From NCBI RefSeq assembly GCF_020991475.1, contig NZ_JAJMPA010000001.1, forward strand, positions 2,666,001-2,730,000: DNA of 64,000 nt. The letters are read 5' to 3'. Below the pieces are notes generated by a model. It ran no database searches, was not told the DNA's origin, and saw only the letters and a program-made list of their open reading frames with translations. The position numbers were made by a program, and so were the translations under genes. This DNA is from Pedobacter sp. MC2016-14. Its GTDB lineage: Bacteria > Bacteroidota > Bacteroidia > Sphingobacteriales > Sphingobacteriaceae. Positions 42,735 to 46,350 of the stretch are shown here, piece by piece; positions within the stretch are counted from its first letter, which is position 1, and each line of letters opens with the position of its first letter.

Positions 42735-43421
42735 ATGAAAATTCTGTTGATAGAGGATGAACCAGCATTGGTGTCCGTAATTGTTAGAGGTTTGGCCGAA
42801 TCAGGTATAGAAGTGAGTGCAGCTACAGATGGGCATACGGGTTTAGAAATGGCGCTTAAGCACCAGTTTGATTTGATCATTTTAGATTTGATGCTTCCCG
42901 GTATGGGTGGGGTACAAGTTTGCCGCGAATTACGGAAAACAAATACAGAGGTTCCGGTAATTATGCTTACTGCACTCTCCAGTACAGAGAATATTGTCAC
43001 CGGACTGGATAGCGGGGCAGATGATTACCTGGTTAAACCCTTTAAATTTGCAGAACTGGAGGCCCGCATCCGCACCCATGTCAGACGAAGCCAGAAGGAT
43101 GTTAAGCCAAAAAATGTAATTGTCATTGCAGATCTGGAGATTGACGTGTTATCCCGTACCGCACATAGAAGTGGCAAACCCATCCAACTTACCGCCACAG
43201 AATACAGATTGTTAGAATATTTTGCACAGCATCAAGGCATGGTGCTCTCCCGGATTCAAATTCTGGAAAATGTATGGGATATCGATTTTAACATGGGTAC
43301 CAATGTAGTAGATGTTTATGTCAATTACCTCCGGAAAAAAGTAGACAATGGTTACCCAAATAAATTAATCCATACTGTTTTTGGCATGGGCTATATGTTT
43401 AAGGAAAAGCCTGGTCAATGA
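42735..43421 (+). CDS. OmpR/PhoB-family response regulator
   Basis: 228 aa from the ATG at 42735. Receiver domain with phosphorylatable Asp51 in LIILDLMLPGMGG and acidic pocket ED at 7-8, then a winged-helix DNA-binding domain (TATEYRLLEYFAQHQGMVLS). It overlaps the kinase gene by 4 bases (ATGA). OmpR-type regulators bind tandem 11-bp repeats, and such repeats lie at 44805-44848 just after the kinase gene. Confidence 0.95.
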   Translation: MKILLIEDEPALVSVIVRGLAESGIEVSAATDGHTGLEMALKHQFDLIILDLMLPGMGGVQVCRELRKTNTEVPVIMLTALSSTENIVTGLDSGADDYLVKPFKFAELEARIRTHVRRSQKDVKPKNVIVIADLEIDVLSRTAHRSGKPIQLTATEYRLLEYFAQHQGMVLSRIQILENVWDIDFNMGTNVVDVYVNYLRKKVDNGYPNKLIHTVFGMGYMFKEKPGQ

Positions 43422-44803
43422 AAATACAAACCAAAATCACCTTATTCTTTTTCATCATAGCCACCGTTGGGCTTATGTTGCTCAACGCTTCTATTTTTTA
43501 TTTCGTTTCTGAGTTCAGTTTTGAAGATTTTTTTAAACGATTGGAAGCAAGGGTAAACCTGGCCGCAGAAATTAAGATAAATCCAGACAGTAAATCTGCG
43601 GCTTACCAGGAGGTGAGGAGCAAGTACCTGGAAAAATTAGAACAAGAAAAAGATTACATCATTCCAGTAAATCATTTAAAAGACAATACTTTCATTAAAC
43701 CATTGCCCTTGCCAGATCAGTTTTATCAATCTATTATCAAAGTAGGTAAAGCAAGGTATAATGAAAATAACCATTTTTATGTAGGTGCCTTTTTCAAAAA
43801 AGACAATGCCAGTTATATCGTTATTGTTGCCGCAGAAGACCCTTATGGATTTAAAGAACTCGAGCAGTTAAAAAAAGTACTGCTAATTATATTCTTTATC
43901 TCTATCGTTCTCACCTATATTGCCGGTAAAATCTTTTCATGGTACATCATACAGCCCGTTACAACCATCATCAACAGGGTTAAAACCATTACGGCAAACA
44001 ATTTGAATTCAAGACTTACAGAATTAAAAGGTAAAGATGAAATTGCAGAACTTGTGCTCACCTTTAATAACATGCTTACCCGTTTGGAAACTTCATTTGA
44101 AACCCAAAACAATTTTGTGAGTAATGCTTCCCATGAGTTAAGAACCCCGCTCACCATCATCACCAGTGAGGCCGAAATATTGCTCAATAGCACTCAGCTG
44201 GAGCCAAACCATCAGGAAGCGGTTAAAACCATTTTTGCAGAAGCAGAAAAACTCGGTCATATTTTAAGCAGCCTGCTTGGCCTTGCACAAACGGGTTTTA
44301 ACGGGAAAAAGCAGAACTGGGAAAGTATCAGGATAGATGAGCTGGTGGTTAGTGTGGCAGAAGCGGTTAAGAAAATTGAATCCGAGTCCAAGATTAACCT
44401 GGATTTTTCTGGCCTTCCAGACAACGAATCCATGATGTATACCGAAGGGAACCTTAACCTGCTCCAGCTTGCAATCAGCAACATTGTACTCAATGCCTGT
44501 AAATACTCAAATAACAGTCCGGTCGTAATCCGCGTGTCATCAGCGGGTAACAGAATTACAATTGCTGTATCAGATCAGGGGATTGGAATTCCAGAAGAAG
44601 ATCAGTCGCACATCTTTGAGCCTTTTTTCAGGGCTTCTAATACCACAGATTTTCAGGGATATGGAATTGGCCTTCCGCTTACTTTAAATATCATTCGTTT
44701 GCATAAAGGTACCATAGGCATCCGCTCAGAAGAGCAGGTAGGTACAGAAATCCAGATCCTCTTGCCCATCCAGCAATTAGGTACTACAGAAGTTAGTTTG
44801 TAA
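43418..44803 (+). CDS. Sensor histidine kinase (CusS-like)
   Basis: 461 aa membrane kinase partner of the preceding regulator. Two membrane helices (about 8-28 and 150-172) flank a periplasmic domain of about 120 residues. HAMP (to about 225), the phosphoacceptor in NASHELRTPLT, and the ATPase N and G boxes (NIVLNACKYS, DQGIGIPEED) follow. The signal is unknown; the architecture resembles metal and envelope-stress sensors. Confidence 0.94.
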   Translation: MKIQTKITLFFFIIATVGLMLLNASIFYFVSEFSFEDFFKRLEARVNLAAEIKINPDSKSAAYQEVRSKYLEKLEQEKDYIIPVNHLKDNTFIKPLPLPDQFYQSIIKVGKARYNENNHFYVGAFFKKDNASYIVIVAAEDPYGFKELEQLKKVLLIIFFISIVLTYIAGKIFSWYIIQPVTTIINRVKTITANNLNSRLTELKGKDEIAELVLTFNNMLTRLETSFETQNNFVSNASHELRTPLTIITSEAEILLNSTQLEPNHQEAVKTIFAEAEKLGHILSSLLGLAQTGFNGKKQNWESIRIDELVVSVAEAVKKIESESKINLDFSGLPDNESMMYTEGNLNLLQLAISNIVLNACKYSNNSPVVIRVSSAGNRITIAVSDQGIGIPEEDQSHIFEPFFRASNTTDFQGYGIGLPLTLNIIRLHKGTIGIRSEEQVGTEIQILLPIQQLGTTEVSL

Positions 44804-44804
44804 T

Positions 44805-44848
44805 CTAATTAAATTCTAATAAGTATCTTATTTCCTTCTAATAAGTAG
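44805..44848 (+). promoter_or_regulatory. Four tandem 11-bp repeats, response-regulator box
   Basis: Four consecutive 11-mers start at 44805, 44816, 44827 and 44838: CTAATTAAATT, CTAATAAGTAT, CTTATTTCCTT and CTAATAAGTAG. The last ends 4 bases before a near-consensus -7 element TACTCTTG (44853-44860). This is the PhoB-box layout for OmpR-type regulators and lies between the two-component genes and the stress-protein gene. Confidence 0.65.
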
Positions 44849-44901
44849 GTGCTACTCTTGTATAGTCAGTTAATTAAAGTTAAACCTTAAAAATACTACC
44901 T

Positions 44902-45390
44902 ATGCAAACCATCCTTATTCCAACAGATTTTAATACCGCTGCGCTTGATTGTATTCCCTCACTTTGCAAGCAACATAAAGATCAGGAGCTGCGCTTTAAT
45001 TTTGTGCATATGTTCAAACTGTCCGATTCTATTGGAGAGTTGCTTATGCTATCCAGACGCAATCGCGAATTTGAGCAGGTTAGCGATGAGTTTTATAGCC
45101 GTTGCAACCAACTTAAAGCCGAGTACAAACAGATCAAGGCCATTAAGATTGATTTTCTATATGGAAGTACACTGAGTTACTTCAAGAATTACCTGGAAAA
45201 CAATGAGATAGACGCCGTGTTAGATGCTTCTGATTGCTTTGTTGGTAAAATCAACAAGTCTAGCATAGATCCTCAAATCCTGGTGCAAAAATCTGGTTTA
45301 CCTATTGTTTCAGTTCTGCCTCAGGCTGTAGAAGAAGAGCTCAGTACTCAGGCTCATCCTATGTATGATCATGAACTTTCAGCAGTCTGA
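44902..45390 (+). CDS. Universal stress protein-like (UspA) protein
   Basis: 162 aa alpha/beta UspA-type fold beginning MQTILIPTDFNTAALDC. The ATP-binding G-x2-G-x9-G(S/T) motif is not evident, so it may be a non-ATP-binding form. It is the first gene after the tandem-repeat promoter and lies 33 bases before the bestrophin gene, so both probably belong to the two-component regulon. Confidence 0.8.
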   Translation: MQTILIPTDFNTAALDCIPSLCKQHKDQELRFNFVHMFKLSDSIGELLMLSRRNREFEQVSDEFYSRCNQLKAEYKQIKAIKIDFLYGSTLSYFKNYLENNEIDAVLDASDCFVGKINKSSIDPQILVQKSGLPIVSVLPQAVEEELSTQAHPMYDHELSAV

Positions 45391-45423: not shown

Positions 45424-46350
45424 ATGCTATTAAAAGAGAATATACCAGTTTCCTATGTATTTGGAAAGATTTGGAAAGAGATGCTCCTGGTTACTGCCTA
45501 TGCTGCATTGATAGCAGTTTTATACAACACTTATCACTTTACCCGAATATCAATCCCTATCGCCGTACCTACAATTTTAGGTACCGTAATTTCCCTGCTG
45601 CTGGCTTTTAAATCCAATCAGGCCTATGACCGCTGGTGGGAAGCACGCACCATTTGGGGAGGTATTGTGAACGATTCAAGAACACTGACCCGGCAGCTAC
45701 TCACCTTTGTAGACAGCCCTTATGAGCTGGAAAAGGAAAGAGCATTTTGTGAGCGCATGGCAAAAAGACAAATTGCCTGGAGCCACAGCCTAAGCAGGCA
45801 TTTGCGTGGACAAGATCCTTTGCAGGGTTTACAACGCTTACTCTCCGAAGAAGATTTTGAAACCATTCAGCGGTATAACAATGTGCCTATGGCATTGTTG
45901 GAATTACAAGGGTCTGATTTGAGGAATGCCTATAAATTAGGCTGGATCAATGAATTTCAGCAGGTAGAAATGGACAATACCCTAACACGTTTCTCTAATG
46001 AAATGGGGGGCTGCGAACGGATCAAAAACACCATATTTCCTGCAACATACAGTACCTATATCCACTTTTCCGTATTGCTGTTTATTTTACTGTTGCCTTT
46101 CGGATTAATTGAATTCTTTGGTGTAGTTGAAATTCCATTGGTGATTGCCATTTCATGTTCCTTCTTCCTGATTGAGAAAATGGCCATTCATCTGCAAGAT
46201 CCTTTTGAAAACAAACCTACAGATACGCCTACCAGTGCCATTTCACAAACCATAGAGCGCGACATTCGACAAATGCTTAAAGAGAATTACAAACAGGAAG
46301 AAAAACATGGGGCCAGTCCTAAAGCTTCAAAAGTTTTCTACGTCCTTTAA
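45424..46350 (+). CDS. Bestrophin-family ion channel
   Basis: 308 aa, family UPF0187/bestrophin. Hydrophobic helices at about 15-35, 42-62, 205-225 and 225-250, and the characteristic FKSNQAYDRWWEARTIWGGIVNDSR block. Bacterial homologues form pentameric cation or anion channels in the inner membrane. A terminator follows directly. Confidence 0.88.
   Translation: MLLKENIPVSYVFGKIWKEMLLVTAYAALIAVLYNTYHFTRISIPIAVPTILGTVISLLLAFKSNQAYDRWWEARTIWGGIVNDSRTLTRQLLTFVDSPYELEKERAFCERMAKRQIAWSHSLSRHLRGQDPLQGLQRLLSEEDFETIQRYNNVPMALLELQGSDLRNAYKLGWINEFQQVEMDNTLTRFSNEMGGCERIKNTIFPATYSTYIHFSVLLFILLLPFGLIEFFGVVEIPLVIAISCSFFLIEKMAIHLQDPFENKPTDTPTSAISQTIERDIRQMLKENYKQEEKHGASPKASKVFYVL

Follow-up and report, generated by a model that had tools for sequence, protein, structure and literature searches.

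We describe an array of four tandem 11-bp repeats which very probably serves as the operator of a Usp-bestrophin operon in Pedobacter sp. MC2016-14, and from which the response regulator encoded at 42735 would, once phosphorylated, bind and activate that operon. The array was found in a window of 64 kb, by which we mean the whole stretch of DNA that was analysed. An earlier note on this DNA had predicted that the regulator controls the UspA-like protein and the bestrophin channel, and this prediction gains support from synteny in several families, from a fixed period, number of units and distance to the -7 element, and from the way in which the array follows the operon. The genes concerned are the following:

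42735..43421, + strand: response regulator of the OmpR/PhoB class (PF00072, 1.1e-30; PF00486, 5.6e-25).
43418..44803, + strand: sensor histidine kinase (HAMP, HisKA and HATPase_c by Pfam; H-box SHELRTPL).
44902..45390, + strand: divergent Usp-fold protein of 162 aa, gene 1 of the output operon (assigned by Pfam matches of its family and by fold).
45424..46350, + strand: Bestrophin_2 channel of 308 aa, gene 2 of the output operon (PF25539, 1.4e-67).

The protein encoded at 42735 joins a receiver domain (Response_reg) to a C-terminal Trans_reg_C winged helix, and is thus a member of the OmpR/PhoB family, as the earlier note had implied. Its recognition helix starts with GTN190-VVDVY, and its closest named relatives in the regulator tree are from Pedobacter, with Pedobacter metabolipauper the nearest. 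The nearest NCBIfam model is TIGR01387 (heavy-metal regulator, CzcR/SilR/CopR), with 252.2 bits, below the cut-off of 279.2; for the kinase it is TIGR01386 (CzcS/SilS/CopS), with 182.6 bits, below the cut-off of 292.55. The start of the kinase gene overlaps the stop codon of the regulator gene (ATGA), and its own stop codon, 44801-44803, ends 2 bp before the first repeat unit, counted from the C of that unit.

The 162-aa protein of the window has no Pfam match of its own, and PF00582 is matched by 9 of the 22 members of its family (E <= 0.1), the best at 1.2e-9. In a Foldseek search its AlphaFold2 model (mean pLDDT 81.8, pTM 0.74) found 2dum first (3.1e-7), followed by YnaF, MJ0577, TeaD and others, mostly named Usp structures; the 42 PDB chains at E <= 0.001 were nearly all Usp, which identifies the fold. 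The label UspA-like was therefore right, in the sense of a divergent Usp. The bestrophin label was right as well: the second protein reaches 228.6 bits against PF25539 (Bestrophin_2), where the gathering score is 27. To our knowledge, the physiological role and the control of the bestrophin family in bacteria are poorly known.

In the register first proposed for the repeats, the units CTAATTAAATT, CTAATAAGTAT, CTTATTTCCTT and CTAATAAGTAG occupy 44805-44815, 44816-44826, 44827-44837 and 44838-44848 without gaps, and the array end at 44848 is followed by the four bases GTGC and by TACTCTTG at 44853-44860. The letters and coordinates of four gap-free 11-bp repeats ending 4 bp before TACTCTTG are hereby confirmed. 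The proposed consensus unit CTAATAA proved too narrow, since the constant core across relatives is TCTAAT, and TCTTA in unit 3. The features in the conserved register are:

44804..44814, + strand: array unit 1, TCTAATTAAAT (the CTAATTAAATT of the earlier note starts one base later, at 44805).
44815..44825, + strand: array unit 2, TCTAATAAGTA, aligned with the arrays of relatives.
44826..44836, + strand: array unit 3, TCTTATTTCCT, with the T in fourth place kept in 71 of 78 aligned arrays.
44837..44847, + strand: array unit 4, TCTAATAAGTA, promoter-proximal, aligned with the arrays of relatives.
44853..44860, + strand: putative -7 element TACTCTTG, one mismatch from the sigma-A consensus TAnnTTTG (TAnnCTTG in the window).

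Taken from the window alone, the periodicity is not significant and lies within chance. The lag-11 identity within the 44 bp is 0.48, a value equalled somewhere by 3726 of 20,000 mononucleotide shuffles of the 98-bp gap, and when any lag from 8 to 14 is admitted, 2560 of 4000 shuffles of this gap match the repeat identity of the array. The claim therefore rests on comparison with relatives. When the unit is written as T[CTG]T[AT]A[TC], the array is the sole four-unit 11-bp array with at most 2 mismatches on both strands of the 64-kb window, and none of 60 simulated windows held a four-unit array at <=1 mismatch; this unit was derived after seeing the relatives, so the window-scale uniqueness test is partly circular.

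The comparison was performed by scanning 1.4 kb before each bestrophin gene with the same unit, at a four-unit threshold of <=3 mismatches of 24. In 108 of 114 loci (101 of 107 distinct genomes, 7 of the loci duplicating a genome reached by two routes) the orthologous Usp-bestrophin operon is preceded by a period-11 array, while the same scan at periods 8, 9, 10, 12, 13 and 14 gave 1, 0, 1, 0, 0 and 3 of the 114 loci, respectively. When 80 named loci were scanned over their whole length, period 11 gave 114 matches in 76 loci, every other period between 8 and 15 at most 9, and a reversed unit, used as a control, 6 at period 11. The conservation in 108 of 114 loci settles that the array is real, and direct repeats with an 11-bp period, together with the period controls, are those expected of an OmpR/PhoB operator. 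The six loci that miss the threshold are weak (L072, L246, L247), recognisable with 4 mismatches (L125, L241), or rearranged (L146).

Column statistics were drawn from 78 arrays with <=2 mismatches, exactly four units, no duplicate genomes and, at +49/+50, a T with A, G or T after it; columns +49/+50 are thus partly selected by this rule, and +54 to +56 are not. The units read TCTAAT / TCTAAT / TCTTA. /.TTAAT, with linkers of 5 variable bases between them; AT also precedes the hexamer in units 1 and 2, and T, T and A are invariant at several unit positions (78 of 78). Units 3-4 are altered in flavobacterial relatives (f54).

Some bestrophin match was present in 30 of 41 genomes (the own genome and 40 relatives), and a Usp match in 20. 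Within 12-kb regions, the order regulator-kinase-Usp-bestrophin was kept in 17 of 20 relatives, the exceptions being one locus without the Usp gene (L071, genome G018) and two in which no kinase was matched next to the regulator (L053 and L072, the latter having a divergent Usp-like gene). The genes also stand together in nearly all of the 80 named loci, from Pedobacter, Mucilaginibacter, Rufibacter, Rhodocytophaga, Chitinophaga and others. Here the exceptions are three Mucilaginibacter loci without a nearby regulator-kinase pair (L126, L131, L132), three in which the pair is divergently oriented (L164, L184, L187), one without the Usp gene (L150) and a short contig without the regulator (L148). 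The array, its period, its fixed promoter distance, its conservation and the synteny can all be read directly from the sequences.

Two of these loci deserve separate mention. At L053, where the kinase is absent beside the regulator, a second partial array lies between the regulator and the Usp gene, and on a different contig (G002:C15) of the same genome (G002) a kinase match covers residues 133-454 with one in-frame stop. At L146, from Arcticibacter eurypsychrophilus, the N-terminal part of the regulator is fused directly into the Usp gene and the bestrophin is split over two frames; the rest of this genome yielded no ortholog of the regulator or the kinase, and the locus is decayed or misassembled.

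The -7 element TACTCTTG begins with a T that lies 49 bases past the first T of unit 1. Among the 108 loci within the mismatch threshold (the 6 others of the 114 being excluded), this offset of +49 is found in 87, and +71, two units further, in 10 others. PMC9723704 gives TAnnTTTG as the sigma-A -7 consensus of Bacteroidota and places the -7 box at -12 to -5 in Flavobacterium transcription maps. If the box is placed likewise here, the hexamers would fall at about -61/-56, -50/-45, -39/-34 and -28/-23, and the promoter-proximal units 3-4 might stand in for a -33 element. The phosphorylated 42735 regulator would then bind head-to-tail, each 11-bp unit taking up a single DNA-binding domain, and probably in the form of two neighbouring dimers, on units 1-2 and units 3-4; the bound regulator would recruit RNA polymerase to the non-consensus -7 element. 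Binding, activation and the dependence on phosphorylation are what we infer from this arrangement, the direction of control being deduced from the promoter geometry. The sign of control is not readable from the letters as such, and the array comes within 10 bp of the -7 element, near enough for a steric block, so that the regulator might bind the array and yet repress the operon, for example by obstructing the polymerase, with phosphorylation either relieving or strengthening the effect. We regard such repression as unlikely, because the units stand in whole 11-bp steps upstream of the -7 element, at one fixed distance and ending before it, which is the geometry of OmpR/PhoB activators, and because the -7 element is off consensus. 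As for autoregulation, no comparable array was seen by eye in the 160 bp 5' of the regulator gene in the window and 20 relatives; one weak match, with 2 mismatches, lies upstream of the regulator gene at L240.

The reading of the array as the operator of this operon is also supported by its distribution, which tracks the output genes. In the Pedobacter locus without a Usp gene (G018/L071), it stands directly ahead of the bestrophin gene. In the three Mucilaginibacter genomes of L126, L131 and L132 it remains at the Usp-bestrophin operon; the orthologous regulator and kinase are kept elsewhere (70-71% and 60-63% identity, respectively), and no array was found within 10 kb around these displaced pairs (L225-L227). 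Among 25 genomes of the genus, all 20 with a bestrophin ortholog have the array at the operon, with 0-1 mismatches of 18, while the five without the ortholog (G005, G012, G015, G016, G022) have no array below 2 mismatches. At E <= 1e-60 the regulator is missing from four of these five, and the fifth, G012, contains just a 48% paralog. Nor is there an array at seven bestrophin paralog loci that lack the two-component genes. At <=2 mismatches, the array pattern gave 56 matches in the 25 genomes and its reversed control 24, which means that 2-mismatch matches are mostly background. One match of this class is conserved at another site in six genomes, G019, G023, G013, G006 (TCTAATGAATTTCTAATGAATTTCTGTT), G001 and G009 (near variants), and at this site (L233 in G019) there is no recognised regulator-kinase pair adjoining.

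The same distribution bears on the notion that some other OmpR-type regulator binds the array while the adjacent pair acts elsewhere. The arrays of the three Mucilaginibacter and of G002 are not beside an intact regulator-kinase pair, and paralogous regulators have similar TTTAAT/TCTAAT units. Still, the three Mucilaginibacter retain the orthologous pair, G002 retains the regulator, and those genomes of the genus that lack the array and the bestrophin ortholog lack the regulator too. We therefore consider this notion very improbable, the more so in view of the agreement between regulator and array described in what follows.

Among the bestrophin-linked regulators, Asn190 accompanies CTAAT-type arrays, with T-rich sixth places, in 91 of 91 cases, and Lys190 accompanies CTTAC-type arrays, with C-rich sixth places, in 17 of 17; none of the 108 rows (102 different sequences) is discordant. 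The Lys190 loci often have six units. On the regulator tree one change of each trait suffices (support of the Lys190 group, 11), and since this is a single event, the agreement has no independent statistical weight. Residue 190 aligns with Asn212 of Mycobacterium tuberculosis PhoP (NVVDVY versus NVVESY), which, according to PMC4832192, makes contact with four bases at the centre of the half-site. Asn188 of PmrA, whose equivalence to residue 190 was matched by eye, is listed among the DNA-specific contacts in PMC3973317. In 7 of 8 Chitinophaga genomes tested the paralog arrays are of the T-type beside Asn190 and the bestrophin array is of the C-type beside Lys190, which argues against another regulator reading the bestrophin array. 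Asn occupies position 190 in all 35 paralogous regulators examined. As paralogs in the same genome keep Asn and T-type arrays, genome base composition is not the cause of the CTTAC arrays. A DNA pattern search for the Lys190 signature TK[VIM][VIM]DVY(V/L/I..)N gave no hit in 395 genomes of the class. Independent repeats of the Asn-to-Lys change were thus absent from the 395 class genomes and the 35 paralogs, and the covariation stays one event.

It is tempting to generalise, if only tentatively, that CusR-type systems in Bacteroidota have a private local address of four to six 11-bp units behind the kinase, whose unit sequence would be read by residue 190, with Asn specifying CTAAT and one Asn-to-Lys change in the Chitinophaga lineage going together with a rewriting of the array to CTTAC. 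If this were so, the bestrophin regulator and its operator would have switched specificity jointly, while paralogs in the same cell kept the old code, insulating the parallel systems from each other. The remaining explanation takes the repeats for a chance product of AT-richness, or for an intrinsic UP-like or DNA-bending element with no dedicated protein. It could appeal to the shuffles reported above and has a negligible probability, being refuted, as far as sequence can do so, by the period controls, the -7 distance and the column conservation: particular letters, not mere A+T, recur in phase from one genus to the next, and period 11 alone shows this.

Systems of this kind, in which an OmpR/PhoB regulator acts on tandem 11-bp units, are already well known. 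The PmrA (BasR) box of Klebsiella and Salmonella is likewise bound by an OmpR/PhoB regulator, with Asn188 in the place that residue 190 takes here. However, it consists of two half-sites rather than the four to six units found here, the PmrA regulon concerns polymyxin resistance, and the 42735 regulator gives 149.1 bits with the PmrA equivalog model, whose cut-off is 330. The PHO boxes of PhoB/PhoP in Escherichia coli and Streptomyces are built of 11-nt direct repeat units with effector domains head-to-tail, as proposed here, and their unit number varies in S. coelicolor (both from PMC4415409). By contrast, they serve global phosphate regulons and have another unit sequence, where the present array serves one operon beside the regulator's own genes, and the 42735 regulator stays below the PhoB equivalog cut-offs. 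The M. tuberculosis PhoP site, as described in PMC4832192, combines a 7-bp motif with a strict 4-bp spacer, giving the same 11-bp period, but it has two units, the motif TCACAGC and another regulon. CusRS/CzcRS are the nearest NCBIfam subfamilies for both proteins (TIGR01387, TIGR01386), yet with scores below the cut-offs; paralogs in this genome and in relatives precede efflux genes and have an array of the same sort, whereas the output in the window is a Usp and a bestrophin.

In the open-access literature, searched at the level of abstracts, we found no two-component system controlling a bestrophin and no report of the array type of the window. As far as these searches show, the new elements are the circuit from kinase to Usp and bestrophin, its breadth, the rigid promoter architecture of four to six units, and the covariation of regulator and array. 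A bacterial bestrophin would be tied to a dedicated sensor kinase, and since this kinase can be deleted or swapped, the signal that calls for the bestrophin becomes testable. Moreover, one contact residue and a whole operator array differ together, with same-genome paralogs as controls for two-component insulation.

The expectation of further targets held in part: array-bearing sites do exist, but only as paralogous systems with arrays of their own. When the four-unit pattern is relaxed, the 5.04-Mb genome of the window yields three arrays at 0-1 mismatches, the window array among them. A pattern of units 3-4 plus the -7 element gives 15 matches against 18 for its reversed control: one perfect match, which is the window array, one with 1 mismatch, at an efflux paralog, and 13 with 2 mismatches, no more than the 18 of the control. 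A wider regulon in this genome was thus rejected, only the window site and the paralog array exceeding the control background.

The efflux paralog (L218, G000:C2:242846-244930) consists of a regulator-kinase pair, a TTTAAT four-unit 11-bp array behind the kinase, and efflux-type genes of a metal-efflux system; the -7 geometry is that of the window array. Across this genome and relatives, arrays just 3' of the kinase and before CzcCBA-type efflux genes, named from reading translations, occur at L218, L220, L222, L224 and L236. Another 29 kinase paralogs were chosen by score in 15 named genomes: an array with <=3 mismatches lies within 360 bp of the kinase end in 18 of them and is absent in 11; 8 others of the 37 paralog loci, chosen earlier and some of them for holding arrays, were left out of this count.

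Some single loci add to the picture of what such arrays precede, their products again being recognised from translations. At L223 (G038:C9), a pair and an array precede a SulP-like permease and a Usp-like protein of 269 aa, giving a second locus whose output is a transporter and a Usp. At L231 (G014:C297), five TCTAAT-type units separate a regulator-kinase pair from an outer-membrane-type protein of 447 aa. The third four-unit array of the window genome (L219, G000:C1:2076443-2076481), of the TTTAAT type with 1 mismatch and no recognised regulator-kinase pair adjoining, lies 5' of a 1084-aa protein that resembles a TonB-dependent receptor.
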